Source of the DNA: a virus
IMG/VR virus record: IMGVR_UViG_3300022591_000075
Location: 1 to 22,352 of that record
Strand: one strand, 5' to 3'
DNA: 22,352 nucleotides
Positions 5,095-22,352 of this stretch are shown here, in pieces. A program made the position numbers and the translations under genes. Each line of letters begins with the position of its first letter. Position 1 is the first letter of the stretch. A model generated the notes under the pieces. It was not told where the DNA came from and ran no database searches. It worked only from the letters and a program-made list of their open reading frames with translations.

Positions 5095-7536
5095 ATGGTG
5101 CAGCTTCCCTTCGGAATAACCATCGGACGTGAGAAGGCGCCCCTCTCCCAGGCCAACACCGTCCCACCTGGCCCATTCGACCAGCGCCGCGGCGACCCCG
5201 AGGTAGGCGCACCCGGCACCGTCTACTATTCGGGCTTCCTCGACAGCGAGGAGTACAACCACGACCTCCGCGGCGAAAAGGCGATCAGCACCTACACGAA
5301 GATGCTGGCCGACGGCACCGTGCAGGCGATGGTCCGCGCCATCGTGCTCCCCATCCGCTCGGCAACGCCCCGCTTTGAACCGGCCAGCGCGGATGCGCAG
5401 GACGTGGCCATTGCCGACGCATGCGAGGAAGTGCTGCTCAACATGGAGGGGCAGCGTTGGGACGACTTCATCCGGCAGGCGTTCACCGGCGCGCTGGTGT
5501 TCGGGCACGCGGCGTTCGAGCAGGTATGGACGAAGCCGGGCGAACTGGATGAGAACGGCAAACCGACGTATCAACCGAACTTCGTCGCGCACGAAGGCAA
5601 GCAGCTCATTGCGCCATACAAGCTGGCGCCGCGGCTCCAGAAAACGCTCTACCGCTGGCTGATCGACCGCGACGGCGAACTCCTCGGCGTCCAGCAGCGC
5701 GTATGGTCCGGCACCGTCCCTCCGGGCACGCAGGTTGACCCAGGCGAGCATTGGCCCGTGACGCCGAGCGGCACCTACCGCTACATCACCATCCCGGCGG
5801 ACCGCCTCTTCCTCTTCGTGCTGGAACAGGAAGGCGCGAACTTCCTCGGCCGCTCCATCCTCCGCGCCGCCTACAAGCACTGGTATTACAAGGAGGCCCA
5901 CCTCCGCATCGCGGCCCTCGCGGCCGAACGGCAGGGTGTGGGCGTGCCCTACGCCATCACGAAGCAGGGCATCCAGCCGAGCGAGACCGCGGCGCTAGTG
6001 AACGCACTCCGCGCCCTCCATGCGCACGAGAAGGCCTACCTCATCGCGAACGAGGCGCAGCTCGCCGACGCGGGCAAAACTGGCATGGACTCCATCGGCA
6101 TCATGAACATGGCCGCTTCGGGTACGGAGAAGGTCGACGTGATGATCCTCTACCACGACCGGCAGATGGCCGTATCCGTGCTGGCGGACTTCCTCACCCT
6201 TGGCAGCGGCCAGGGCGGGAACGCGAACGTCATGCACCGCGACAAGACGAGCATGTTCTATGAGTCGCTCCTCGGCATCAAGAAGCCGTTTGAGGACAAC
6301 TTCCAGAAGACGGTCGTCGAGCCGTTCGTGCGCCTCAACTGGGGCGAGAACGCGAAGGCTCCGCATTTCCACCTCACCGGCATGGAGGCGAAGGATCTCG
6401 AATCGCGCGGCCGCGGGCTTGCGGCGCTGTTCCTCGCGAAGGCACTCACGCCGACGCCGGAGACGGAGAACCAGCTCCGTGAGGAGATGGACCTGCCACT
6501 GCTTGACGAGGGCCCAGACGGCGAGCCGGTCTACCCCGATGTGACGCCCCCAGGCACGCCGGGCCCGACAACGCCGATGGACGTCGGCAGGATACCGCCA
6601 GCCGGGTCTCCACTGCCGCAGGAGCCGCCGGAGGTAACGCACCGGGACCCCGCCAACCTCGCCGAGGAGATCGCGGCCATCGTGCTAGCCAAGCTAGGGG
6701 AACTCCCAAACCCAAAAGCGCCGGCCGCTAAGCGCCTCGCATCACCTCCTCAGATAGCGGCGGCAGCGGTAGCGGTGGCACTCCTCGCGGCGCGGAAGCT
6801 GCACGCCCAGGTCGTGGACGAGATGGGCTCCAACGCCGACAGGCTCGTCGATGGCCAGGATGACTACGGCGTGGACGACTACAGCCGCGACGGCACGCAC
6901 CTCATCCGCAACGCAGCCGCATCTATGTTCGCGGCGGGATTCCTCGCCCAGGGCAAACGCAGCGAGGGCGACCGCATCACTGCAGCGGCAACGCCCGGGC
7001 GCGCGACGCCGGAACCCGTAGCGCTGGATGCGGCCCGCGATGCGTGGGCAACGTCCGTAGCGGCCGAGGCGGCGCCATTCGTGCTGAAAACGGCCCAGGA
7101 GCTGACAGCGGGCGAAATCACGCGAGACGAAGCAGACACGAACGCAGCCGCGCAAGCCGGCGTCATATGGACGAGTGTGTTCCGCGGAGAAGCTGCCGCG
7201 CTCGGCGACCAGTTCCGCGTTGTGTGGCATGCGGAGAGCGACGGCGAGGTATGCGCGCTCTGTGACCCGCGCGACGGCCAGGAATACGACCAGGACACAC
7301 TACCGGGCTATCCCGGCGAGGGCGGGTTCGGCGACATCTGCGAAGGCGGCCCAAACTGCCGATGCGAATTGGAGTTCCTCGAAGATGACCCGGCTGATGC
7401 GGAAATGAGCGAGCCGCGCATCCTCGCGGAGGCGCGCTGCCCGAAGGGGCACTGGTGCGGCCGCAACGTCAACGCGGGCGCGGTGCTGTACTGCAAGAGC
7501 CCGCAGTGTCGGAAGGAATGGGTGGTCACGCTATGA
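5095..7536 (+). CDS. Portal fused to gpF-like head morphogenesis domain and C-terminal zinc ribbon
   Basis: 813 aa, far longer than a usual portal. Residues about 55-480 resemble Mu gp29-type (DUF935) portals: GALVFGHAAFEQVW, then FLGRSILRAAYKHWYYKEAH and QMAVSVLADFLTLGSGQGG. A Pro-rich linker (about 482-520) leads to a domain like Mu gpF/SPP1 gp7, recognised by CALCDPRDGQEY (C720, C723) and GPNCRCELEF near residue 755. The end (781-809) is a four-cysteine ribbon: CPKGHWC, later CKSPQC. The portal part should form the dodecameric DNA channel; the gpF-like part a few copies of an internal head protein. Such fusions occur in some phages, but every portal subunit would then carry the minor protein. 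The start ATG lacks a Shine-Dalgarno. Confidence 0.85.
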   Translation: MVQLPFGITIGREKAPLSQANTVPPGPFDQRRGDPEVGAPGTVYYSGFLDSEEYNHDLRGEKAISTYTKMLADGTVQAMVRAIVLPIRSATPRFEPASADAQDVAIADACEEVLLNMEGQRWDDFIRQAFTGALVFGHAAFEQVWTKPGELDENGKPTYQPNFVAHEGKQLIAPYKLAPRLQKTLYRWLIDRDGELLGVQQRVWSGTVPPGTQVDPGEHWPVTPSGTYRYITIPADRLFLFVLEQEGANFLGRSILRAAYKHWYYKEAHLRIAALAAERQGVGVPYAITKQGIQPSETAALVNALRALHAHEKAYLIANEAQLADAGKTGMDSIGIMNMAASGTEKVDVMILYHDRQMAVSVLADFLTLGSGQGGNANVMHRDKTSMFYESLLGIKKPFEDNFQKTVVEPFVRLNWGENAKAPHFHLTGMEAKDLESRGRGLAALFLAKALTPTPETENQLREEMDLPLLDEGPDGEPVYPDVTPPGTPGPTTPMDVGRIPPAGSPLPQEPPEVTHRDPANLAEEIAAIVLAKLGELPNPKAPAAKRLASPPQIAAAAVAVALLAARKLHAQVVDEMGSNADRLVDGQDDYGVDDYSRDGTHLIRNAAASMFAAGFLAQGKRSEGDRITAAATPGRATPEPVALDAARDAWATSVAAEAAPFVLKTAQELTAGEITRDEADTNAAAQAGVIWTSVFRGEAAALGDQFRVVWHAESDGEVCALCDPRDGQEYDQDTLPGYPGEGGFGDICEGGPNCRCELEFLEDDPADAEMSEPRILAEARCPKGHWCGRNVNAGAVLYCKSPQCRKEWVVTL

Positions 7537-9234: not shown

Positions 9235-10013
9235 TGACCGCGCTCACTGCTGACACGCCAATCACGATGCGCAATGCGGGACTCCGGTCCTACAAAGTCG
9301 CGGACAACGTCAAGATCTACAAGGGCTCGATCGTCTGCCGCGACACGTCCGGCTACGCGAACATCGGCGCCGATACCTCCGGCTTCGAAGTTCTGGGCAT
9401 CGCCCATGAGCAGGTGGACAACACCCTCAGCGGCCACACCGCTGGCGGCAAGCGCATCCGGGTCCAGTCCGGCGCGCACTTCCTGCTCGTAGCTGCATCG
9501 CTTGCGCAGACTTCCGTCGGGAAGATTGCTTACGTCACCGACTCGGCCACGGTCGGCCTGACCAGCACGAACAGCGTCCCGGTGGGAATGATCACCGAGT
9601 ACATCTCGGCGACCAGCGCATGGGTGCTCATCCCCGATCCAGGTCTCGGCCAAGGTGCGGTGATCACCGGCCAGCCGCTCGGCTATCAGACCGGCTCCGG
9701 CGGCGCGGTCACGCAGGCGACCAATAAGTCGACCGGCGTCACGCTCAACACGCCGACCGGCGCGATCACGATGAACGCCGCCAACCTCGCCGCGACGACC
9801 AGCGTTGCGTTCACCCTGACGAACTCCTGCATCCAGGCGGGCGACCTCGTCATCGTCAACTTCAAGAGCGGCAACACGGCGAATTCGTATCAGGTGGCCG
9901 TCGATGCGGTCGCCGCGGGCTCGTGTTCCATCTCCCTCCGCAACTACACCGCCGGCGGCCTCGCCGAAGCCGTCGTGCTGAGCTACGCCGTCATCAAGGG
10001 CGCCATCGCCTAA
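9234..10013 (+). CDS. Head decoration (capsid cement) protein with C-terminal beta domain
   Basis: 259 aa, ATG 9234 overlapping the previous stop by one base, no clear Shine-Dalgarno, so probably coupled. Residues about 10-140 look like a beta-barrel decoration protein of the DUF2190 type (LRSYKVADNVKIYKGSIVCR, FEVLGIAHEQVDN). Residues about 155-259 form a second beta-rich module (VTQATNKSTGVTLNTPTGAI, then NAANLAATTSVAFTLTNSCI) that recurs in many phage structural proteins. Its place between scaffold and major capsid protein matches a decoration protein. It should bind the outside of the expanded capsid. The family fit is by pattern and order. Confidence 0.7.
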   Translation: MTALTADTPITMRNAGLRSYKVADNVKIYKGSIVCRDTSGYANIGADTSGFEVLGIAHEQVDNTLSGHTAGGKRIRVQSGAHFLLVAASLAQTSVGKIAYVTDSATVGLTSTNSVPVGMITEYISATSAWVLIPDPGLGQGAVITGQPLGYQTGSGGAVTQATNKSTGVTLNTPTGAITMNAANLAATTSVAFTLTNSCIQAGDLVIVNFKSGNTANSYQVAVDAVAAGSCSISLRNYTAGGLAEAVVLSYAVIKGAIA

Positions 10014-10031
10014 CCAACGACACACGCTGGA

Positions 10032-10067
10032 GGCGAGGGGCGGCTTCTACCTCTCCCCGCCCCCGCC
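10032..10067 (+). other. Strong GC hairpin between decoration and capsid genes
   Basis: GGCG-a-GGGGCGG (10032-10043) pairs with CCGCCCCCGCC (10057-10067): 11 base pairs with one bulged A and a 13-nt loop. No T tract follows, so it is not a classic terminator. It could be a processing or pausing site in the capsid leader. The rest of 10014-10154 shows no ORF, and AAAGG ten bases before ATG 10155 is the only ribosome-site candidate. Confidence 0.5.
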
Positions 10068-10154
10068 TACCGGCACCAGCCACCTCGCTTTTCCCTTGGC
10101 CTGAAGATGCAGTAAGGCGACACAACCGGGAGCCAAACCGAAAGGTCGATCCCA

Positions 10155-11078
10155 ATGGCTGTAGTAACCGCCGATTTCCTCTCGGGCGTTTTCACGAACT
10201 TCCGGGCCCTCTGGCAGGATGCTTTCATCGCTGCCCAGACGCAGCTCTTCTACCCGCGCGTATGCATGGAGACCACCTCCACCACGCTCACCGAGACCTA
10301 CAACTGGCTCGGCACCGTGCCCCAGATGAAGCTCTGGATTGACCAGCGCCAGCATCAGGGGCAGTACCCGTTCAACTACTCGCTAACGAACAATCACTAC
10401 GAGGTCACCATCGACGTCGACCGGGACACCTTCCTGGACGACAGGCTCGGCATGATCTCGCCCCGCATCGCGCAGCTCGGCGCCGAGGTGCCGCGTTTCA
10501 TCGAAGCAACCGCCATCGGCGCGCTCGACACGGGCGCAACGGCCGGCAACAACAGCTATGACGGCGTGAGCTTCTACAACTCCTCGCACCTGACCGGCGG
10601 CAACGCGGCGCAGACCAACCTCTTCACCGCGACCGGCACGACCCTCTCGACGATCCAAACGGACTTCGGAGGTGCGAAGTCCCAAATGCGTCTCGTGAAG
10701 GATGACCAGGGACGCCCGATGAACCTCGTCGCGGATATGGTCATGGCTCCCCCGCAGCTTGAGCAGGTGTTCGCACAAATGCTCAACGCTAGCTTCCTCC
10801 CGCTCGCGGGTATCGGCTCCGGCGACAACACGTTCAAGGGCCAGGCCGACCTCGGCGTGTCGCCGTACCTCACCTCGGCGACGGCGTGGCACCTGCTGGC
10901 GACGAAGTTCGCCGCCGCCAAGCCGCTCATCTACCAGAACCGGCAGCCCGCCGAGTTCGTGGGCATCGATAACCCGGACCATGAGCGTGTGTTTGAGCGG
11001 CGCATGTTCAGCTACGGCGCGGACACGCGTTTCAACATCGGCTACGGCTGGTGGGAAACGGCCATCAAAGTCTCCTAG
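10155..11078 (+). CDS. Major capsid protein (Mu gpT-like, HK97 fold expected)
   Basis: 307 aa, close to the roughly 305 aa of Mu gpT. Hallmarks of that family: YNWLGTVPQMKLWIDQRQ near residues 49-66, FNYSLTNNHYEVTIDVDRD at about 73-91, LGMISPRIAQLG, and YDGVSFYNSSHL at about 135-146. The C-terminus reads ERRMFSYGADTRFNIGYGWW. There is no N-terminal delta domain, consistent with the separate scaffold encoded upstream. It builds the icosahedral shell. It lies between two strong hairpins, which may allow its message level to differ from its neighbours. Confidence 0.9.
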   Translation: MAVVTADFLSGVFTNFRALWQDAFIAAQTQLFYPRVCMETTSTTLTETYNWLGTVPQMKLWIDQRQHQGQYPFNYSLTNNHYEVTIDVDRDTFLDDRLGMISPRIAQLGAEVPRFIEATAIGALDTGATAGNNSYDGVSFYNSSHLTGGNAAQTNLFTATGTTLSTIQTDFGGAKSQMRLVKDDQGRPMNLVADMVMAPPQLEQVFAQMLNASFLPLAGIGSGDNTFKGQADLGVSPYLTSATAWHLLATKFAAAKPLIYQNRQPAEFVGIDNPDHERVFERRMFSYGADTRFNIGYGWWETAIKVS

Positions 11079-11090
11079 TCATTCGCCCCA

Positions 11091-11133
11091 AACGGTTAGG
11101 GCCAGTCCAGGGGCGCTGGCTGGCCCTTCCGTT
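11091..11133 (+). terminator. Long hairpin after the capsid gene (terminator, attenuator or processing site)
   Basis: A 17-bp interrupted stem: AACGG/CCGTT, AGGGCCAG/CTGGCCCT and CCAG/CTGG around a GGGCG loop, with only a TT-by-T internal loop and one bulged T. The tail is TTGTGAACTGG, weakly T-rich, so a partial terminator is more likely than a full stop. The connector genes downstream follow closely and have no other visible promoter. Confidence 0.5.
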
Positions 11134-11151
11134 GTGAACTGGAGGTTCCAT

Positions 11152-11367
11152 ATGGCAAAGACACCAGATATTCAGATACTCACTGTCGGGCAGGTCGTCA
11201 CCTACCGCGACGCCGGGCGCATCACGACCGGGCACATCGTCGCGCTGAACGAGGACGGCACCGTCGATCTCGTCTACCCGCACCCAGCGAACGAGAGCAT
11301 TGAAGCCAGCGCATACCGCGTCGCAGAGGGCACCGGCGGCTTCCAGTTCGAGCGGGCGACGGCCTAA
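11152..11367 (+). CDS. Small beta-rich protein after capsid
   Basis: 71 aa. The frame is open further upstream inside the capsid gene, but ATG 11152 is the real start: GGAGG at 11141-11145 with a 6-nt spacer. The sequence (VGQVVTYRDAGRITTGHIVA, NEDGTVDLVYPHP) suggests a small SH3-like beta barrel. No named family is recognised. The next gene's ATG overlaps its TAA. By position it may be a head-completion or capsid accessory protein. Confidence 0.7.
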   Translation: MAKTPDIQILTVGQVVTYRDAGRITTGHIVALNEDGTVDLVYPHPANESIEASAYRVAEGTGGFQFERATA

Positions 11368-11855
11368 TGAGCTACTGCGTGCTCGCGGATGTCTCGGCCC
11401 ACAATGTGGCCCGGACGGTGTATTCCGCCAGCACCAAGCCTACGGATACCCAAGTCCAGAGCTTCATTGATCAGATCGCTGGCCAGATTGACGCCGCGCT
11501 CGCGGCCACGCACATCCTCACGCCCTGCACGGGCCCCGCGGGCTTTGTCGCCTTCCTGAAGCTGGCGAATTCCATCGGTGCAGCCGCGCTGGCTGAGGCG
11601 GCGCAGTTCCCGGAATTCAATCCCGCCTCACCTGGGAACACCCCTCAGTCAGCGCGTTACTGGAAGATGTTCCAAGGGTTCATCGCGGGCATCATCGATA
11701 ACTCGCTCGTGGACCCCGGAGCTGCCGTCAGCGGTAACGACCCGCTCGCGCAAACGTATCTCACCGACAATCCAGGATGGCCGACCGACGACGACGGCAT
11801 GACGGACGGGCAACAGCCGGTGTTCTCCATGTCGCCCTTCGTGAGGCAATTCTGA
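11367..11855 (+). CDS. Head-tail connector (adaptor) protein
   Basis: 162 aa, ATG overlapping the previous stop (TAATG). The N-terminal half looks like the helical adaptor proteins of the Mu gp36 / HK97 gp6 kind: TDTQVQSFIDQIAGQIDAAL followed by a second long helix FLKLANSIGAAALAEAAQF. The C-terminal part is loop-rich and acidic. It should dock on the portal after packaging and extend the neck. The order connector, gpG-like, tail terminator, tail tube supports this. Assignment by pattern and position. Confidence 0.65.
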   Translation: MSYCVLADVSAHNVARTVYSASTKPTDTQVQSFIDQIAGQIDAALAATHILTPCTGPAGFVAFLKLANSIGAAALAEAAQFPEFNPASPGNTPQSARYWKMFQGFIAGIIDNSLVDPGAAVSGNDPLAQTYLTDNPGWPTDDDGMTDGQQPVFSMSPFVRQF

Positions 11856-12319
11856 TGAACCTGACCATCGCTGTCACCGGCGCCGAACAGCTGCGCTCGC
11901 AGCTCGACCAGGCGGCAATCGCCTTCTCTGACCTTACGCCGCTGTGGCCGGAAATCCGCGATGAGTTCTTTGCCGTCGAGCAGGAGCTGTTCGCGACCGA
12001 GGGGGGCAGCGGTGCGGGCGGCGGCTGGGAGCCATTGTCGCCGGCCTATGCAGCGTGGAAGGCGGCGGCATTCGGCACGCCGATCGAGGTTCGCACGGGG
12101 GCGCTGATGGCGTCGCTGGCTGGATCGGGTGCTGACGTGTCGATGGGGCCCGACTCCATGACCATCGGCACGCTACTGTCCTATGCCGGATATCAGCAGT
12201 TCGGCACGAGCCGTATGCCCGCCCGCCCAGTCATCGACATTACCGAGTCCGACCGGGACCGCTTCATCGAGACGGCGCGCCAGTGGGCAGAGGGCCGCAT
12301 CTCGGAGATCTTCGCATGA
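11855..12319 (+). CDS. Mu gpG-like virion morphogenesis (head-tail joining) protein
   Basis: 154 aa. A longer reading from 11777 exists, but ATG 11855 overlaps the upstream TGA (TGATG), the arrangement used across this operon. The typical gpG/HK97 gp10 features are present: an N-terminal helix (EQLRSQLDQAAIAF), WEPLSPAYAAWK, VRTGALMASL, then YAGYQQFGTSRMPARPVIDI and a closing helix. Family members complete the tail or join it to the head. It is followed by the probable tail terminator with a 4-nt overlap. Confidence 0.82.
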   Translation: MNLTIAVTGAEQLRSQLDQAAIAFSDLTPLWPEIRDEFFAVEQELFATEGGSGAGGGWEPLSPAYAAWKAAAFGTPIEVRTGALMASLAGSGADVSMGPDSMTIGTLLSYAGYQQFGTSRMPARPVIDITESDRDRFIETARQWAEGRISEIFA

Positions 12320-12804
12320 CGCTGCAACTCGCCGAGGGAGTAGTCTCCGCATATGCGAACTACTTTGCCCTGAACCAGGGAGCGAAATTCGCGGCGCTCA
12401 ACGCCGAGTTCGGCGATGGGATCACGCTTGCGCAGTGGACGACGGTCAGTCTCTACGAAAAGGTCGAGATTGAACCGTCGCAGTTTCCCTGGCTGGAGGT
12501 CCTCGCGGCCGGCGGCAGCGTTGACACCGAGAACGCGATGCTCACCACGACGAAGCACACGATGGCGCTTGTCTGCTGGCTCATGGACGACACCAGCGTC
12601 GAGGTGCTCCGGCGCCGCGTCATGCGCACTCACCGGGCGCTGTTCGAGATGGTGAAGGATAGCCGCACCGACGCCAGCATGACCGGCTACAACGTCAGCC
12701 GGGTCGGCCAGTGGCAATTCAACACCTGGAAGCGGCCGGAGAGCCGAGTCGTCGCCAACCTGATCATGCAACTCGACGTCACCATTAACGAGGCCTATCC
12801 GTGA
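12316..12804 (+). CDS. Probable tail terminator / tail completion protein
   Basis: 162 aa from ATG 12316, overlapping the previous gene by ATGA; the longer reading from 12283 is not supported. Alternating helices and strands (LAEGVVSAYANYFALNQGAK, WTTVSLYEKVEIEP, TTTKHTMALVCWLMDD, LIMQLDVTINEAYP) fit the alpha/beta fold of tail terminators, with a C-terminal strand that could add to a ring. It lies just before the tail tube gene, the usual position. No signature motif proves it. Confidence 0.55.
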   Translation: MTLQLAEGVVSAYANYFALNQGAKFAALNAEFGDGITLAQWTTVSLYEKVEIEPSQFPWLEVLAAGGSVDTENAMLTTTKHTMALVCWLMDDTSVEVLRRRVMRTHRALFEMVKDSRTDASMTGYNVSRVGQWQFNTWKRPESRVVANLIMQLDVTINEAYP

Positions 12805-12917
12805 CTGATGTAGATCCTCGGATTGTTGAACAGATGCGACGGGCGCTCCTGAGCGTCATCGCGCAATTTGAAGCGCTACACGGTCCGCTGCGGCCCCCCA
12901 AAGGGCCGCGCGACTAA
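12801..12917 (+). CDS. Very small ORF (38 aa) coupled to the tail terminator
   Basis: GTG 12801 overlaps the upstream stop by four bases (GTGA). The product, starting MTDVDPRIVEQMRRALLSV, is one amphipathic helix with a basic Pro-rich tail ending PPKGPRD. The coupling is the main argument that it is translated. A 7-bp hairpin (12890-12909) overlaps its last codons. Function unknown. The gap 12918-13010 holds only a GC-rich leader. Confidence 0.5.
   Translation: MTDVDPRIVEQMRRALLSVIAQFEALHGPLRPPKGPRD
12890..12909 (+). other. GC hairpin at the end of the 38-aa ORF
   Basis: GCGGCCC-cccaaa-GGGCCGC, a perfect 7-bp stem with a 6-nt loop, upstream of the tail tube gene. No T run follows. Possibly a pause or message-stabilising element. 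Confidence 0.4.
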
Positions 12918-13010
12918 TTCGGCAAACCGGGCGCCCCGCTTCGGCGGCATCCCCCACCACGCGTAGGCCATCCCCGGCAACGGGCGCCGCCTCCGAAAGG
13001 AGACAGCGTC

Positions 13011-14387
13011 ATGCCGCTTCCCTCTTCGGTTCGGGCACTGCATCAGTACCAGTGGGGCGCCGAGGTTGCCAATGCGACCGGCACCTACACGCTCGCCGTG
13101 CTTCCAACCGCAGGCGACACCTACACGATCGGCGGCACGGTCTACACATGGAGGGCTGCCGCTTCGGTAGCTGGCGATGTGACCATCGGCGGCGCCGTCG
13201 CCACCTCGAAGACGAACATCGTCGCGGCCATCAACGGCACGGACGGGCTGAACTCTCCCAATCCGTGCGTACTTGCCGCGAACTTCGTCGCGAACGTGAT
13301 GACGCTGACCTCGCGCGTAGCAGGCGTGGGCGCTTCTGGGCCGCCTCAGACCGGTAACAGCATCACCACGACCCAGACCATGACCAGCGGCTCGAACACC
13401 GTGCAGCAGGCGACCCTCGCAGGCGGCAGCGGCACGCGCGGGACGCTGGTAGCGGCCACCTCGAAGATGGCGATCGAAGGGATCATCGACTTCGAGCCGA
13501 CGGACAGCGTCTACCGTCCGAACATGGCCCGCGGCCTCGCCCTCGCCAACCGCGGCAACGAGCAGGTCATCGCTCGCGGTACGAAGTGGACGCTCGCCGA
13601 CATGGCCGCGAACTTCGAGCAGTTCCACATGTGGATGACGATGCTCACGTCGAACTACGTGCTCAACACGGGTGCGCCCAACGTCTGGACGTTCACCTGG
13701 GCGCCGACGAATGATCCCAGCCCGTACAGCTGGACAGTACAGCGGCGCATCTCCGATGGTACGAACGTTGACGATAACCGTTTCGGCTACTTCATGATGG
13801 AACAGTTCTCCATCAAGACGGCCCAGGACAAGCCGGTCATGTTCGGTGCCAAGGGCTTTGCGCGGCGCATCCAGACGGGCACCATCACCGGCAGCCTCTC
13901 GATGCCCAACCCGAACATCCCCGCATCAGCGCAAGTAACCGTCTCGTTCGACTCGACCTGGGCGAACCTCGGGGTAACTCCCATCAACGCCCAGATCTAC
14001 GCCAGCGACATCACCATCACCACGGGGCTGATGCCGCTCGTGACGAGTCCTGGCCGCTCGGACCTCGACTTCGGTACGCACATGCTGAACACCGAGAAGG
14101 TCGGCATCTCGGCCAAATTCACGATGCTCGTCTCGCCCGGTGCTCAGTACGACACGGAGAAAACGGCCGCGGAGGCGCAGACGCTGCGGGCGGTCCGGGT
14201 GAAAATCGCGGGCCCCACCACGCAGGAAATCGATATCGACATGATGCTGAAGCACAACCAGGGCTCGCTCTTCAAGCTGGGCGAGTACAACGGTGCAGAC
14301 ATCGTCACGCTCGACCTCGTCGGCTCGACCGATCTGACGAACTTCCTGGCGATCACCGTGAAGAACGGTGTAACGACGCTGGCCTAA
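13011..14387 (+). CDS. Major tail tube protein with inserted beta domain
   Basis: 458 aa, ATG 13011 with AAGGAG about ten bases upstream. Residues about 23-145 form a domain seen inserted in many phage virion proteins: GDTYTIGGTVYTW, VATSKTNIVAAINGT, VGASGPPQTGNSITTTQ and finally TLAGGSG. The tube core follows: AIEGIIDFEPTDSVYRPNMA, KWTLADMAANFEQFHMWMTM, RRISDGTNVDDNRFGYFMME, and a beta-rich C-terminus (FTMLVSPGAQYDTEKTAAEA, EIDIDMMLKHNQGSLFKLGE). It should polymerise into the tail tube, with the inserted domain facing outward. The place before chaperone and tape measure agrees. There is no sheath gene, so the tail is long and non-contractile. Confidence 0.8.
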   Translation: MPLPSSVRALHQYQWGAEVANATGTYTLAVLPTAGDTYTIGGTVYTWRAAASVAGDVTIGGAVATSKTNIVAAINGTDGLNSPNPCVLAANFVANVMTLTSRVAGVGASGPPQTGNSITTTQTMTSGSNTVQQATLAGGSGTRGTLVAATSKMAIEGIIDFEPTDSVYRPNMARGLALANRGNEQVIARGTKWTLADMAANFEQFHMWMTMLTSNYVLNTGAPNVWTFTWAPTNDPSPYSWTVQRRISDGTNVDDNRFGYFMMEQFSIKTAQDKPVMFGAKGFARRIQTGTITGSLSMPNPNIPASAQVTVSFDSTWANLGVTPINAQIYASDITITTGLMPLVTSPGRSDLDFGTHMLNTEKVGISAKFTMLVSPGAQYDTEKTAAEAQTLRAVRVKIAGPTTQEIDIDMMLKHNQGSLFKLGEYNGADIVTLDLVGSTDLTNFLAITVKNGVTTLA

Positions 14388-15272: not shown

Positions 15273-15415
15273 CCGAGATGCAATGGCTGCGGGACCGCGG
15301 CATCTGTTCCTCGCTCGCTGAGCGCGACGAGCTGGACGAACGCGTCCTCGCGGATTGCCGCCTGCTGATGGAAGCGGAGGCGCTGCGGCGCGCCAAGGTG
15401 GCCTCCGGTGGCTGA
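14847..15415 (+). CDS. Tail assembly chaperone, frameshifted long form (lambda gpGT analogue)
   Basis: A -1 shift on A_AAA_AAC at 15200-15206 (base 15206 read twice) joins 120 residues of the short form to 69 more, 189 aa in all, ending at TGA 15413. The junction reads DAEKN then LGNRLVAWAVGG. The added part is helical and charged (ITEMQWLRDRGICSSLAERD, DCRLLMEAEALRRAKV), as in T domains that bind the tape measure and recruit tube subunits. The -1 frame stop overlaps the GTG of the tape measure gene. Seen: slippery heptamer and clean coding continuation; known: the same design in most long-tailed phages. Confidence 0.8.
15200..15206 (+). promoter_or_regulatory. Programmed -1 ribosomal frameshift site A_AAA_AAC
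   Basis: Seven adenines (15199-15205) followed by C give the heptamer A AAA AAC in phase with the chaperone frame. AGAGGA (15188-15193) upstream could act as an internal ribosome-stalling Shine-Dalgarno. A small stem, CCGCC (15214-15218) with GGCGG (15236-15240), begins seven bases after the heptamer. Confidence 0.8.
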
Positions 15416-18263
15416 TGTCCAAATCACCTTCACTGGGACGAGCAACGTTGACCAGGCGGCCAATGAGGCCAAGTCCGCGCTCGACGAGCTGCTGGCTACC
15501 GTCGCGGGCCTCCAAACTCAGCTGGACGCGCTCACACCCTCCACGGCCGCGGCCGAGGCATCGCTGAACCAAACCGGCACCGCTGCGGCTGAGGCGAACA
15601 CCCATCTCGCCGAAACGACCAACCACGCCAATGAGACGGGCGGCGCGCTGAACGGCATGGGCAGGCAGGCCTCGGCGGCGGCGCAGAACGTCATCGGGCT
15701 CGCCGGCGAGGGCCTTGGCCCGCTGAGCGAGGCGTTCTCCGGCGCAACAGAGGCCGCCGTAGCGTTCAGCGAAACGGGGCTGCTCGGAATTGCGGCTGCG
15801 GCTACTGCCGCTATTGCCGTCATGGGCGAGCTGGGGACTGAGGCCGGAAACCTCGAAACCCAAATGATGCAGATCTCCGCAACGCTCGGGATCACGGCGG
15901 AAGAGGCGGACAAACTCGCGCTGCGGTTCGAGGATGTTGGCTCGAACGCCGGAATCCTGATCCGGCTCGGCGCGCAGCTCTCCACGGTGATGAGTCAATA
16001 TGCCGACTCGGTGGCGAAGGGCACGGCCGAGAGCCTCAAGGCGCGGACAATCATCGAAGAACTCGGTGTATCGCTAACGACCGAAAACGGGCTGCTCCGC
16101 AATCAGGGAGAAGTGCTCGACGAGGTCCTAACGAAGCTGGGGACGATGTTCGACCGCACTGAGGCCGCGCGTATCGCCGCTGAGCTGTTCGGGTCGCGTA
16201 TGGCCGGACAAGTCATCCCCGCTCTCAACAACTGGTCGGCAGGAAGCGCCACGGTAGCGGACCAATCGGAGCGGCTCGGGCTAGGCACCCAGAACGTTAC
16301 TGAGAACTCGATCGCCTATCACACGGCGCTAACCAATCTCAACATCGAGATGGAGCGGCTCGGCGTACAGATCCTGCCGCCGCTCATCGAGGCCCTCGAC
16401 CGCATGGCCACCGGCCTCCAGCGCACCGAGAACGGCGTGCATTCGCTCTGGGGCGCAACGACCGACCTGATCGGCAGCGTCCCAGGGCTGAGCAAGACGT
16501 TAGAGGTGATGGTTGGGATTGAGGCGGTAGCGTTTGCCCCAATTACCGCCAGTGCCCTCGGACTGGCCTATGCGGTAGACCAGCTGACCAGCTCGGCGGA
16601 CCGCAACGCGAATTCGATGTTCCACGACATCACCGCCATCTACAACTGGGGCGAAGCTGCCGCGGCGGCCATCGCCAAGGCGTCCGCGCCGAAGAAGAGC
16701 GATGGCCCGCTCAGCGGCTTTTTCGATGGCGTGCAGGCGTTCGTGGACGAGGGCACCCGCGCTATCAATGGCATCCCCTGGGATGTGTTCGGGCGGATAG
16801 AGGGCAGCGTCCACGGCGGTAGCGGAGCGGGAGCAGCCGCGAAGGCGCAGGTCGAGTCGTTCGCGCAAGCCATGATCGATGCACTCCAGAACAGCGAGCT
16901 CGAAAAGGAGTTCGGCGCCGCCGGCGGCAAGGTCCTCGAAGCGTTCGGCGCAGCCCTGGAAGATCCCACGAAAGCCGCATCCATCGCCCCGGCCATCACG
17001 AAGCTCATCGACGACGCAGAGAAGGCAGGCGTTCCCAACGCTGCCGAGCTGGGCGCGAACCTCATCAACGCCATCGGTGACGGCCTGCAGACGGGCGACT
17101 GGAACACCATCTACGACGACATGCACGCGCTCACGGACATGCTCGGACCGGTCGCCGTGGAGCACGCAAAGGCCGCCAAGGAGATCGCCAAGGATCAGGA
17201 AACGCTCGCCACCGACTTCGCCACGACCGCAGAAGCCATCCAGACGGCGACCACGGCTGAAGCGGACGCGATGAACAAGCTGGCCGTTGACCACCAGAAC
17301 GCCATCCTGAAGATCCTGGCCCAGGAACGGCAGGCACAGCAGGACTTCGCCGACCTCGAATCGCAGCGCACCGCCGACGCGGCCGACGCGCAGTCCACGC
17401 GCCACCAGAACGCGCAGGACGCCTATGACCAGCGCCATGCCGATGAAGCGGACGCGCTCGATACCCTCGCGCAGACGCACCAGGACAACCTCGACAAGAT
17501 CGCCGAGAAGGAACTCACGGCCAAGACCTATGCCGAGTATCTGAAGTTCGAGGCCGAGAAAACCGCCGAGAACAAGCGCTACGCCGAAGCGGTCGCGGCC
17601 GAAGAGAAGAAGGTCGCCAAGGCCGACGAGGCCGCTGCGAAGGCGCTGGCGAAGCAGGATGCCGATGCGGCGAAGGCGCTCGCCAAGCAGGAAGAGCACG
17701 ACCGCGCCGCACTCGCGAAGCAGATTCAGCATCTCCACGACCAGGAGGACGCGGAGAACACCGCCTATCTCCAGCGCGTGAGTGAGCAGCAGAGGCGCTA
17801 TGCGGACGAACTGAAGCGCCTTGAGGAAAGCTACGCGAAGCAGGAGGCTGCGCTAGCGAAGCACATGGCGGAAATGGCGGCTATCGCTGCGACGGCTGGG
17901 CCCGGCCAGATCCCCGCGGGCGGCATGCGGCCGATCACCATCGATTGGAGCGTTCCCCCGGACCCGGCGAGCGGCGATTACTGGGACAGCGCCAACCAGC
18001 GCTGGGTGGACATGCGCCATCCTCCGCTTCCGGGCTACGCCAGCGGCACGCCGTACGTACCGAACGACGGCCCCGCGATGTTGCACCGCGGCGAGCGAGT
18101 CGTGCCGGCCGCGCTCAACCGTCCCGGCGCCGGCGGCAACAACGGCATGGAGATCAACTTCAATGGCCCGGTCACCCTCGGCGGCATCTCCACGCAGGAT
18201 CAGATCCCGCAGGTGATGCTTTCGGTGCGGACGGCCCTCGCACGGACGGGAGTCATGCGATGA
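15408..18263 (+). CDS. Tape measure protein
   Basis: 951 aa, GTG 15408 with AAGGTGG upstream; the start overlaps the end of the frameshifted chaperone. Two hydrophobic stretches lie at about residues 125-143 (LLGIAAAATAAIAVMGELG) and 367-390. A long Ala/Lys/Glu/Gln-rich coiled coil spans about 580-825, with repeated units such as AAKALAKQDADAAKALAKQ. The C-terminus is typical of tape measures: GTPYVPNDGPAMLHRGERVV. At about 0.15 nm per residue, the known ratio, the tail would be near 140 nm. No lysozyme or peptidase motif was noticed. The protein sets tail length and probably helps DNA entry. Confidence 0.92.
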   Translation: MADVQITFTGTSNVDQAANEAKSALDELLATVAGLQTQLDALTPSTAAAEASLNQTGTAAAEANTHLAETTNHANETGGALNGMGRQASAAAQNVIGLAGEGLGPLSEAFSGATEAAVAFSETGLLGIAAAATAAIAVMGELGTEAGNLETQMMQISATLGITAEEADKLALRFEDVGSNAGILIRLGAQLSTVMSQYADSVAKGTAESLKARTIIEELGVSLTTENGLLRNQGEVLDEVLTKLGTMFDRTEAARIAAELFGSRMAGQVIPALNNWSAGSATVADQSERLGLGTQNVTENSIAYHTALTNLNIEMERLGVQILPPLIEALDRMATGLQRTENGVHSLWGATTDLIGSVPGLSKTLEVMVGIEAVAFAPITASALGLAYAVDQLTSSADRNANSMFHDITAIYNWGEAAAAAIAKASAPKKSDGPLSGFFDGVQAFVDEGTRAINGIPWDVFGRIEGSVHGGSGAGAAAKAQVESFAQAMIDALQNSELEKEFGAAGGKVLEAFGAALEDPTKAASIAPAITKLIDDAEKAGVPNAAELGANLINAIGDGLQTGDWNTIYDDMHALTDMLGPVAVEHAKAAKEIAKDQETLATDFATTAEAIQTATTAEADAMNKLAVDHQNAILKILAQERQAQQDFADLESQRTADAADAQSTRHQNAQDAYDQRHADEADALDTLAQTHQDNLDKIAEKELTAKTYAEYLKFEAEKTAENKRYAEAVAAEEKKVAKADEAAAKALAKQDADAAKALAKQEEHDRAALAKQIQHLHDQEDAENTAYLQRVSEQQRRYADELKRLEESYAKQEAALAKHMAEMAAIAATAGPGQIPAGGMRPITIDWSVPPDPASGDYWDSANQRWVDMRHPPLPGYASGTPYVPNDGPAMLHRGERVVPAALNRPGAGGNNGMEINFNGPVTLGGISTQDQIPQVMLSVRTALARTGVMR

Positions 18264-19120
18264 GCCACTACCAGCCGCGCAACCCCACGACGTTCGAAAG
18301 CACGGACGGCCTGACCGTGGTGACCTTCGGACTCGCCGAACAGCAATGGAAGGAGCAGCACCCTCTCGTTACGCCCTCGGCCGCCGTCATCGGGGCGAAC
18401 TACCCGCACGACTACCTCGGACTGAGCCCGGCTTACAAAGGCCCGGCGGATGAGCAGCTGAACTACGTCGTCCTGGAAAGCACGCCGACGCAGGTCGATA
18501 GCGATCTGGACACGCTTGAGGCCAACATCTTCAACATCGGGCTTGGGCGCCTCTATACCACGGGCGCAGACGGTACGCGGCGTTGGGCCTGGGCGCGGCC
18601 GGTGGCGATGCCCGCGGTGACCTGGAACAGCGGCGACATCTTCATGAAAACGGTGTTCGTCGATTTCCGGCGCCAGAGCGACTGGTATGCGACATCGACG
18701 TCCTCCTATACCACCACGGTCACGGCCGGACAATCCCCCAAATCGGTGACTTGGAACAATCCGGGCACCGCAAAGATGAAGCTCACCATCACGGCGGTAG
18801 CGCTCGGCTCCTCGGGCTACTCCGCCGGTTTCACCATCAATAACACCACTGTATGGACATCGCCCCTCGGGCAGATGACGACCAGCCGCGTCAGCGTCAG
18901 CACGAACAGCCGAGTCGAGTTCGACAGCACCCGCCAGCGGGTCCGCTACTCGACCGATGCCGGTGTGACGTGGGCGGACGACTACGCCAGCGTGACGCTT
19001 CCCGATGTCCAGCCGGACTTCGTGATCGAACTCGCGCCCGGCGACAACACCATCGTATTCACGGTCGGCGGCACTCCGAACGTGACCTTCAACGCCACCG
19101 GCACAGCCGCCTACCACTAG
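18260..19120 (+). CDS. Probable distal tail (Dit-like) protein
   Basis: 286 aa from ATG 18260, overlapping the tape measure stop by ATGA; the frame is open upstream but only as an overlap with that gene. N-terminal part beta-rich (GLTVVTFGLAEQQWKEQHPL, DTLEANIFNIGLGRLY), C-terminal part a beta sandwich with short repeats of the kind seen in Dit galectin-like domains (NPGTAKMKLTITAVALGSSG, then LAPGDNTIVFTVGGTPNVTF). The gene after the tape measure is normally Dit, which forms the hub joining tube to tip. Assignment by position and fold pattern. Confidence 0.62.
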   Translation: MSHYQPRNPTTFESTDGLTVVTFGLAEQQWKEQHPLVTPSAAVIGANYPHDYLGLSPAYKGPADEQLNYVVLESTPTQVDSDLDTLEANIFNIGLGRLYTTGADGTRRWAWARPVAMPAVTWNSGDIFMKTVFVDFRRQSDWYATSTSSYTTTVTAGQSPKSVTWNNPGTAKMKLTITAVALGSSGYSAGFTINNTTVWTSPLGQMTTSRVSVSTNSRVEFDSTRQRVRYSTDAGVTWADDYASVTLPDVQPDFVIELAPGDNTIVFTVGGTPNVTFNATGTAAYH

Positions 19121-19131
19121 GAGGGAGACGA

Positions 19132-19371
19132 ATGGACGCCCCGAATTTCGACACCGCAACCGAGGACGAACTCGAAGCCTACAAAGAGGGGCTGATTGCG
19201 CAAATCGACGAGGTGCGCAGCCAAGCGCAAGCCGTCGAGGCCGCCATTGCCGCCAAGCGCACGATGGCCCTCGCGACCGCTGCGCTCGAAGCCGCCGGCG
19301 TCTCTGGCGCGGTCACCCTCTCGCCAGCGCCCGCGACGCTCGAATCCATCATGAGCACCCCAGGAGAGTAA
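19132..19371 (+). CDS. Small coiled-coil protein
   Basis: 79 aa, ATG 19132 with GGAGGGAG just upstream. Residues about 7-55 are a continuous charged helix (TEDELEAYKEGLIAQIDEV, then QAQAVEAAIAAKRTMALAT) likely to form a coiled coil; the tail is short and Pro-rich. No family recognised. It lies in the tail-tip cluster, two bases before the next gene, and may be a structural or assembly helper. Confidence 0.7.
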   Translation: MDAPNFDTATEDELEAYKEGLIAQIDEVRSQAQAVEAAIAAKRTMALATAALEAAGVSGAVTLSPAPATLESIMSTPGE

Positions 19372-19373
19372 AG

Positions 19374-20036
19374 ATGACGCTGATTCTTCTCGACCGACCG
19401 ACCGAAAAGCCCGCGCCGTCTCGCCTCTGGCGGCCCGGCGACGACGCGCCATCGATGCTCAAGCGCCCTGGCGATCCCGGCTATTCCCCTGTCGTCGTTT
19501 CGCCGAAGCCAGGCTCGCTCTTCAAGCAACCCGGGGAGATCGACGTCTTCGGCGAGGATTGGGACTTCAAGCGGCGTCGATGGTTCGAGGAAACCGGACT
19601 GCTCGGCCCCATCGGTGGAGCCGCGGCTGGCGCATGGACGTTCACGAACGAACTGCGGACAAAGATCTTGCAGGGCTCGTTCGCCATCGGCACCGACACG
19701 TTCAAGATGGCGCTGCTGCTCGGGACCTCGAACATCGGCTCGGGCTCCACCACCTATGCCGGTGTGACGAACGAAGTTGCCAACGCGAACGGCTATACGA
19801 CGGGCGGCGTGACGGTCACCCTCTCCCTTTCCGGAACCACCTCCGTGCCGATCGCGTTTACCCAGGCGCAGTGGACGGCCTCGGGCGGCTCCATCACGGC
19901 GCGGTTCGTGCTCCTCTACAAATCCGGCGCGAACGTCTACGCCTACGCCCTCTGTGATAGCGGCGCGGCCGACGTGACCGCCACCTCCGGGAACACGTTC
20001 ACCGTCACCGCGGGCAACGTCGCGACGCTGGCCTAG
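19374..20036 (+). CDS. Probable virion surface protein with recurring phage beta domain
   Basis: 220 aa, ATG 19374 with AGGAG seven bases upstream. The first 75 residues are Pro-rich and basic. Residues about 85-220 form a beta domain common in phage structural proteins: FTNELRTKILQGSFAIGTDT, FKMALLLGTSNI, TNEVANANGYTTGGVTVTL, WTASGGSITARFVLLYKSG. Such domains often occur in tail or baseplate proteins that contact the host. There is no signal peptide. The exact role is unknown. Confidence 0.65.
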   Translation: MTLILLDRPTEKPAPSRLWRPGDDAPSMLKRPGDPGYSPVVVSPKPGSLFKQPGEIDVFGEDWDFKRRRWFEETGLLGPIGGAAAGAWTFTNELRTKILQGSFAIGTDTFKMALLLGTSNIGSGSTTYAGVTNEVANANGYTTGGVTVTLSLSGTTSVPIAFTQAQWTASGGSITARFVLLYKSGANVYAYALCDSGAADVTATSGNTFTVTAGNVATLA

Positions 20037-20039
20037 CCG

Positions 20040-21671
20040 ATGAATCGCCGCGGACGTATCCCCTTCGTCCTCGGCGCCGCGGGCCTGTTGCTAGCTTTGG
20101 GAGCGCTAGCAACGGGCCTGGTCGGCGCCCCCGCACCCGGCAGCGCCTCTGCCACCAACTGCGGTCTGCAGCTCGGCGGGACGGTCGCGTTCTGCGACAC
20201 GTTCGACGCACCCGCGGGCACCGGCAACCGCGCCGGTGACCTGAACGGGCAGGTCTGGGGAGTCTCGCGCGCGACTGGTAACGAGAACATCGGCGGCCTC
20301 TACAACGCATGGACCTCGGCCCAGCTCGACCTTTGCGGGACAACCGTGGCGGCACCCGCGCCGAGCGACGTGCGCATCTGCAACGGCCAGCTCCGCGATG
20401 CGATGAACGACGGCGGCACGGTCGCGGTCGTGGCCATGTACCCGAAGCAGCCTTTTGATTTCGCGGGCCGCACCGGGACGATCGCATTCGATGTCACCGA
20501 CGACAGCAACGGCACGCATCAGGCGTGGCCCGAGCTTTGGGTGACGGACAAGCCTGTCCCCGCACCATTCGCCCACTTCGGGGAGTGGAACTCGCCCCAG
20601 AACGGGTTTGGGATACGCTTCGGCGGGAGCTTCGCACCCGGCACCGGCGACGCGCTCTGCCCCATCGCCAACACACACCGTATCGGCGTGGATTCGGCCA
20701 TCGTCGTCACGAATCTCATCTCGGCGGACAGCGCCTGGACGGGTGGGCCCATCACCGTAACGGAAAAGGGCTGCGTGCTGGCGTCATCCGGCCCGAACGG
20801 CGGGATGAACCACGTCGAGGTGCGCCCGTCGGCGACCGGCATCGACATATGGATGAGCGACGCGGGCAGCACCACGCTCAAGCTTGTCAGCACCATCACC
20901 GCACCGATTCCGCTTAGTCGTGGACTAGTCTGGCTGGAGGATGTCCACTACAACGCGGGCAAGGATGGGGGCACCCAGCGCATCCATACCTTCGCCTGGG
21001 ACAATCTGGCGTTCGATGGCCCCTTCACCTACCACGACCTCTCGTATGACGTCCTCGACGGCACGAACGTCAACGCCGATGGAACCGTAAACCTCGGCTA
21101 CCGCGCCACCTCGCCCAGCGACCGGGTCAACGTCAGCACGCTGCCGATGGCGGCTGCGGACATCGCTGCGGCGGCCGACCAGCGGCTGATGTTCAACTTC
21201 TATGAGTACAACGCCCCGCTGACGCTCAGCTACACCATCAACGGGCACGCATATTCTGCTCCCTGGCCGGACTCGAACAACAACGGGTTTACGTCGCGGT
21301 CCATCTCAATCCCGCTGAACAAGGCCGACTTGGTCGCTGGGGCGCAGTCGGTCAGCATCTGGGCTGACCAGGCGATCATCGTCTCCAACATCAACATCGT
21401 CCTCGTGAACGTACCGAGCGGAGGGGTGCCGACATCGACTCCAACATCCACGGCCACGGCGACGTCCACCTCTACGTCTACCCCTACCCCTACCCCTACG
21501 GCGTCTCCGACAGCTACCGCAACACCTACCGTCGCTGCAACCAGCACGCCAACTGCTACACCAACGCCAACCCCGATCTGCCGCCAGGTGTGGCAGCGGA
21601 GCACCGACGGCGGGACGACCTGGGGTAACTGGTACCTCGACGCGGCCTGTCCGGCGGGCGGCCACAGCTAA
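20040..21671 (+). CDS. Large protein with signal peptide, concanavalin A-like domain and Thr/Pro linker
   Basis: 543 aa. N-terminus MNRRGRIPFVLGAAGLLLAL with a hydrophobic core to about residue 30 and a likely cleavage after SASA near residue 38: a Sec signal peptide, unusual for a virion protein. Residues about 45-330 look like a beta-sandwich of the concanavalin A/laminarinase type (TVAFCDTFDAPAGTGN near the start, later AWPELWVTDK), but no clear catalytic Glu pair is seen. A second beta domain (335-458) precedes a Thr/Ser/Pro linker (460-512) and a short C-terminal segment with C514 and C537. No Shine-Dalgarno; it starts three bases after the previous stop. It may be a secreted or cell-surface lysogenic factor or a receptor-binding protein acquired from a host. 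Confidence 0.7.
   Translation: MNRRGRIPFVLGAAGLLLALGALATGLVGAPAPGSASATNCGLQLGGTVAFCDTFDAPAGTGNRAGDLNGQVWGVSRATGNENIGGLYNAWTSAQLDLCGTTVAAPAPSDVRICNGQLRDAMNDGGTVAVVAMYPKQPFDFAGRTGTIAFDVTDDSNGTHQAWPELWVTDKPVPAPFAHFGEWNSPQNGFGIRFGGSFAPGTGDALCPIANTHRIGVDSAIVVTNLISADSAWTGGPITVTEKGCVLASSGPNGGMNHVEVRPSATGIDIWMSDAGSTTLKLVSTITAPIPLSRGLVWLEDVHYNAGKDGGTQRIHTFAWDNLAFDGPFTYHDLSYDVLDGTNVNADGTVNLGYRATSPSDRVNVSTLPMAAADIAAAADQRLMFNFYEYNAPLTLSYTINGHAYSAPWPDSNNNGFTSRSISIPLNKADLVAGAQSVSIWADQAIIVSNINIVLVNVPSGGVPTSTPTSTATATSTSTSTPTPTPTASPTATATPTVAATSTPTATPTPTPICRQVWQRSTDGGTTWGNWYLDAACPAGGHS
21479..21499 (+). repeat. TACCCC tandem repeat in the Thr/Pro linker
   Basis: Three perfect TACCCC units plus TAC, within a longer run of Thr and Pro/Ser/Ala codons (about 21425-21575). 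Unequal slippage by six bases would add or remove one Thr-Pro pair. Confidence 0.85.
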
Positions 21672-21682
21672 GGAGTATCCCG

Positions 21683-22252
21683 ATGGCCAACAATACCTTT
21701 GTTGAACAGCTTCTCGCGAACTTGGGCGTGGGTCCCACCACGTTTAGCAGCTTCACGACGGCCAAGTCCGTCATCCCGGCCACGAGCCTGCGGACAATCG
21801 GCGCAAACGAGATGTACATCGGCAAGATGTACCGGCTCAACGTGTGGGGCGCTGTTTCGAACATCGTCACCACGCCTGGGACGCTCACGTTTCAGCTGAT
21901 GATCGGCTCGGCGATCGCATGGTCATCCGGCGCGCTCCAGATGGACAACGTAGCGGGAACGCTGCTGCCGTTTCACCTTGAGGTGTTTCTCGTTTGCCGT
22001 GCGATTGGCACGGGTACGAATGCGAACCTCATTGGTATGGGCGACATCACGTCGGAGACGTTCGTCACGACTGCCGGTGGCGTGGCCACCGCGACGCAGG
22101 AAGTGCTGCAAACACCTGTCACCACTCCTGCTGTTGGTGGTGGGTTCGACTCGACCATCGCCAACGTCGCCGACTTCTGGGCCGGATTCTCGATCTCGAA
22201 TGCGGCGAACTCGATACGCGTTGAGATGATCTCGCTTGAGGCGCTGAACTAG
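21683..22252 (+). CDS. Beta-rich tail or virion protein of unknown family
   Basis: 189 aa, ATG 21683 with AAGGAG seven bases upstream. It begins MANNTFVEQLLANLGVGPTT and continues with alternating strands (IGKMYRLNVWGAVSN, GTLTFQLMIGSAIAWSSGA) and a helix-poor C-terminus ending IRVEMISLEALN. The composition resembles jelly-roll-like phage surface or fibre proteins. No signal peptide. It follows the secreted-type protein and precedes another gene of the same operon. No family recognised. Confidence 0.65.
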   Translation: MANNTFVEQLLANLGVGPTTFSSFTTAKSVIPATSLRTIGANEMYIGKMYRLNVWGAVSNIVTTPGTLTFQLMIGSAIAWSSGALQMDNVAGTLLPFHLEVFLVCRAIGTGTNANLIGMGDITSETFVTTAGGVATATQEVLQTPVTTPAVGGGFDSTIANVADFWAGFSISNAANSIRVEMISLEALN

Positions 22253-22277
22253 GGCTACCCAGACCGGAGGCTCCTAG

Positions 22278-22352
22278 ATGACGATCGCGCTTGTCGGGCA
22301 TGTCTCCGCAGGCTCCGCGCGGCGCGTGTGGCCGACGGCCAACGGCCGCAAC
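22278..22352 (+). CDS. Partial ORF at right edge
   Basis: ATG 22278 with GGAGG eight bases upstream, open for 25 codons to the window end. It begins MTIALVGHVSAGSARRVWPT. The start resembles those of some phage tail proteins with an early GHVSAGS-like turn, but too little is visible to assign it. Same strand and spacing as the tail-tip operon. Confidence 0.6.
   Translation, partial: MTIALVGHVSAGSARRVWPTANGRN

Follow-up and report, generated by a model that had tools for sequence, protein, structure and literature searches.

A putatively exported, lectin-fold protein encoded in a late viral operon and its homologues in phages and bacteria

Why would the late structural operon of a soil phage carry a gene whose product begins like a secreted protein of cellular type? 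The question is raised by an IMG/VR virus record of 22,352 bases, analysed here as a whole and referred to as the window, in which a plus-strand gene at 20040..21671, with an ATG start in the open reading frame listing, encodes a predicted exported two-domain protein of 543 aa.

Operon setting and N-terminal signal

The window also encodes a Mu-type portal, a Mu-type protease and a major head protein. Since a tape-measure-like gene (15408..18263, plus strand; PHROGs tape measure families) is located 1.8 kb upstream, the region of 20040-21671 was assigned to a late structural operon or tail module. A preliminary description of this DNA had placed the gene between two tail genes; the late structural operon is supported, but neither neighbour carries a tail annotation. 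The upstream gene of the same operon (19374..20036, plus strand), preceded by a good Shine-Dalgarno sequence, corresponds in its C-terminal half to phrog_644, a family of unknown function, while the downstream gene (21683..22252, plus strand, 189 aa), endowed with a good Shine-Dalgarno sequence (AAGGAG), showed no family match. The ATG of 20040-21671 occurs 3 nt past the stop codon of the preceding gene with no Shine-Dalgarno sequence found before it, and no promoter-like site was detected within 18200-22352, in agreement with the initial reading that the gene shows no sign of a promoter of its own. The 3-nt gap suggests late synthesis of the protein, with its translation probably coupled to that of the preceding gene.

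Searches with the major capsid protein returned no close relatives of the window phage, and a DNA search of named phages found none. The best relatives of the terminase showed merely 25-27% identity, and the portal displayed remote similarity to actinobacteriophages, among others. The phrog_644 domain of 19374-20036 occurs in 19 viral contigs, with no other detected gene in common with the window. The Mu-type portal (5095-7536) bears an extra C-terminal part resembling a head maturation protease or the Mu F protein, and a gene upstream of the terminase (1330-2613) fuses a ParB-like domain to a DNA methyltransferase.

The N-terminus of the 543-aa protein consists of MNRRGRIPFVLGAAGLLLALGALATGLVGAPAPGSASA followed by TNCG. 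Sequence reading and a strict-rule test assigned residues 1-38 (20040..20153, plus strand) to a Sec-type signal peptide with a predicted cut after SASA. The n-region MNRRGRIP, with three positive charges, precedes a long, uncharged hydrophobic h-region of 22 residues and the segment PAPGSASA, whose AxA site (A36-S37-A38) is positioned three residues ahead of the first conserved cysteine (C41). The strict rule was home-made and, like the gene caller, simple; it returns the first acceptable site, which in this protein is residue 21 and not the AxA at 38. Applied to shuffles of the 543-aa protein, the rule accepted 0.42%; of 289 other genes in the viral loci it passed 15, and of the 23 family starts tested it passed 14, including that of the 543-aa protein. 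Both the signal peptide claimed in the preliminary description and a cleavage site were thus recovered, and we infer from the sequence and from the relatives described below that the protein is exported by the Sec route.

Domain architecture and likeness to carbohydrate-acting proteins

Residues 41-330 (20160..21029, plus strand) were modelled as a concanavalin A-like (jelly-roll) domain, and the fold pattern originally read from the sequence was borne out by both AlphaFold2 and Foldseek. AlphaFold2 returned a pLDDT of 86.4 and a pTM of 0.88 for the two domains together, and a pLDDT of 82 for domain 1 alone. Foldseek ranked L-type lectins first, followed by GH16 enzymes and PL7 alginate lyases, these two groups being seen with domain 1 modelled alone. 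No sequence match to this domain was found in PDB, Pfam, NCBIfam or PHROGs. The likeness to L-type lectins (ERGIC-53, VIP36, legume lectins) concerns the overall jelly-roll fold, with a Foldseek TM to target of up to 0.62, whereas identity amounts to 10-15% with no match at the sequence level; the conserved D151, D/N154-155 and H160 may recall the legume-lectin metal loop. The main clade of the family shows almost no variation at about 30 positions occupied by polar residues, cysteines or aromatic residues, including D151, H160, E300-D301, H303-Y304-N305 and K308, and this suggests a conserved functional site.

The second beta domain reported earlier (residues 333-458; 21036..21413, plus strand) was also retrieved and appeared CBM35-like in a profile search of solved structures. 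Its only matches were 2w3j (3.7e-5), 2w87 and 2w46, all CBM35-type entries, with weak E values ranging from 3.7e-5 to 1e-2. For the CBM35-like assignment, E was 3.7e-5 in one profile run and 1.5e-4 to 5e-4 in another. CBM35 modules resemble the second domain in profile over its length, adopt a beta-sandwich and are attached to secreted carbohydrate proteins; however, the similarity is weak (E about 1e-4) and no Pfam CBM model matched. The remaining part of the protein agrees with the mucin-like linker and Cys-bounded end described initially, as sequence reading identified a low-complexity linker rich in Thr and Pro at about residues 462-512 (21423..21575, plus strand) and a short C-terminal segment between Cys514 and Cys537 (21579..21650, plus strand). 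Analogous short Cys-bounded ends occur in the relatives on contigs L003 and L011. A match to AaBgIC (residues 428-513) was set aside as it covered mostly the linker.

On contig L011, a protein of 1,295 aa (9911-13798) combines tandem representatives of the two family clades with a GH5 cellulase domain, linkers rich in Thr and Pro, and a Cys-bounded end. This cellulase-like fusion (E=2.3e-37), together with the GH16 and PL7 fold neighbours, could be explained if the 543-aa protein were a carbon-acquiring auxiliary metabolic enzyme, i.e., a secreted polysaccharide hydrolase or lyase feeding the host in the course of infection, like other soil-virus CAZymes. GH16 and PL7 enzymes have the concanavalin A-like fold in common with the 543-aa protein, but their catalytic motifs, ExDx(x)E for GH16 and RxE(L/V)R, Q(I/V)H and YxKxGxY for PL7 in the form given here, are missing from its sequence, in which no catalytic signature was found. 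A precedent exists in the soil viral GH75 chitosanase V-Csn, which was shown to be active (PMC9485262). This and similar soil-virus CAZymes are likewise phage-borne, carbohydrate-directed genes of environmental viruses, but V-Csn has another fold, while the 543-aa protein possesses its own export signal and only a putative catalysis. Moreover, the late operon position would leave little time to feed the host, and no CAZyme was matched by the sequence of domain 1. An auxiliary enzyme is therefore unlikely, albeit first among the alternatives.

A family found in phages and bacteria

Sequence scans identified family members in 15 viral contigs besides the window and in 8 bacterial genomes, the latter comprising seven MAGs and the Bradyrhizobium-type genome G1024. 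The homologues whose origin the preliminary description had left to be established therefore come from both sides and, as chromosomal copies exist, are not all virion proteins. The family is absent from Pfam, PHROGs and NCBIfam, no member was found in plasmids, and tblastn against named phages gave one chance-level match only, in the region of a small hypothetical gene. No description of the family was found in the open-licence literature; auxiliary proteins directed at carbohydrates and carried by phages are a known kind, and none of the libraries searched contains this family. Members are mostly 36-50% identical to the window core, and 25-30% in a more distant sister clade, which is often located beside the main type or fused to it (L009, L011, L015, L030, G1024). 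Among related bacterial genomes, a homologue occurred in 1 of 149, 1 of 296 and 1 of 385, in each case the starting genome, and in 3 of the 196 genomes sampled from the Bradyrhizobium-type genus.

Nearly all members with a readable 5' end, a set that leaves out L016 and L018:11189 (unclear starts) and L014 (truncated at the contig edge), have a signal peptide at the N-terminus or else a lipobox, the latter being seen in L021, in L023 and in the second L009 copy. These N-termini are mutually unrelated, and so are the linkers. Purifying selection was detected in relatives, with dN/dS values of 0.07 for L006/L007 and 0.0 for L010/L013, a pair with few changes.

Three Bradyrhizobium-type genomes (L015, L016 and G1024) encode the homologue immediately downstream of gspG within an operon for a type II secretion system (T2SS); Pfam matches to T2SSE and T2SSG were obtained in all three and to the secretin in L016 and G1024. 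T2SS cargo requires a Sec or Tat signal, and the homologues of these three genomes combine a signal peptide with T2SS-adjacent coding; their position after gspG suggests a dedicated T2SS cargo. No T2SS genes were seen near the window gene. An Acidimicrobiaceae MAG (L018) carries three paralogues amid glycosyltransferases. In the family tree, viral and bacterial copies interleave, the supported branches force at least four label changes and L016 pairs with L010 at 99/99. The interleaving indicates repeated passage of the gene between phages and bacteria, in one or both directions. Among the options initially put forward, a captured host exoprotein is the best supported, owing to the signal-bearing chromosomal homologues, three of them after gspG, and the interleaved tree.

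Phage genes on the viral contigs include terminases (L002, L009, L011, L012), a head protein (L006), an integrase (L013), a UvsX-like recombinase (L004), a baseplate gene (L012), and a spanin with a tail fibre (L005). Apart from the sister pairs L004/L008 and L010/L013, these contigs have essentially just the family gene in common. L006 and L007 share a single DNA block of 3,740 bp at 95% identity, which starts within a tailspike-like gene and stops about 30 bp short of the end of the family gene; nothing else was found in common across the full 41-kb record, L007 being a short contig. This block, made up of a tailspike body and the family gene, would fit a secreted surface-altering factor and is suggestive, as a single case.

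Several genes on these contigs encode signal-bearing proteins of their own. Tailspike-like proteins with Sec signals and a GGGTVQFPAGTF or LTGTE motif are encoded beside the family gene at L006:7358-9655, L006:11393-13717 and L007:2352-4586. Between L006:7358 and L007:2352, the bodies show 98% identity and the signal-bearing N-termini differ; among the viral contigs, the L007 tailspike has relatives only in itself and L006. L012:3050-4513 is a tail fibre with a Gp53-like C-terminal domain, an N-terminal domain homologous to annotated tail fibres and an added Sec signal, and its homologues in MW202796 and BcepIL02 begin at the fold, without a signal; a search of viral contigs returned no relative of this fibre beyond L012 itself. 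The product of L011:16220-18265 has a signal peptide, a right-handed beta-helix domain and a Laminin_G_3 domain. Tail fibres with signal peptides were not found described in the open-licence literature.

Since tailspike- and tail-fibre-like proteins with signals occur in L006, L007 and L012, a signal alone does not rule out a virion role. The 543-aa protein might accordingly be a receptor-binding protein of the virion whose hydrophobic N-terminus is used, or lost, en route to the tail, as its location in a late structural operon after the tape measure and the annotated minor tail proteins among structurally similar viral proteins would allow. However, lipoproteins and chromosomal proteins linked to the T2SS are among its close relatives, the gene is present in unrelated phages, and the N-termini are unrelated across phages, unlike a lineage-shared tail-docking domain. 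With signals and linkers varying freely, some lipoprotein relatives and one cellulase-like fusion, the receptor-binding protein with a hydrophobic anchor proposed earlier comes next in order and is improbable too. A bolder and still more doubtful possibility is that in some environmental phages the adsorption module is partly exported, with fibre- or tailspike-like proteins and lectin-like partners bearing cleavable Sec signals, moving jointly as a specificity cassette and acting outside the cell as decoys or receptor-trimming factors, or in an extracytoplasmic assembly step. A passenger gene acquired by recombination and devoid of phage function would suit its rarity in named phages and sampled bacteria, but is very improbable in view of the purifying selection and of the repeated capture by unrelated phages.

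A proposed role outside the infected cell

The explanation that we favour, with a probability of roughly 0.6, is that the gene encodes an exported, cell-derived, glycan-binding and possibly glycan-cleaving accessory protein that acts extracellularly at a late stage of infection. Export is suggested by the signal peptide and by the signal or lipobox present on nearly all relatives despite their unrelated N-termini. A glycan target is suggested by the carbohydrate-acting fold neighbours (L-type lectin, GH16, PL7 and CBM35) and by the GH5 fusion. Also in favour of this explanation are the interleaved tree, the gspG neighbours, the glycosyltransferase locus of L018, the lack of any other gene in common between most of the viral contigs, the block common to L006 and L007 and the purifying selection. 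Since some bacterial homologues adjoin a protein-secretion machine, the protein probably acts on sugars outside the cell and not as a part of the virion.

According to this proposal, an accessory gene of cellular exoprotein type would be carried in the late virion operon; once the signal is cut off, the protein would leave the cytoplasm, and its concanavalin A-like and CBM35-like domains would attach to, and might also cleave, polysaccharides that coat or surround the infected cell. The phage would most probably gain from this by masking or trimming the glycan recognised by its own tail, so that progeny might escape and competitors fail to adsorb.

These results delineate an as yet unnamed family of proteins that phages and bacteria have exchanged and that is tied to type II secretion in Bradyrhizobium-type bacteria. 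They also make it possible to ask, in concrete and testable terms, whether tailed phages make use of exported glycan-binding proteins whose specificity corresponds to that of their own receptor recognition.
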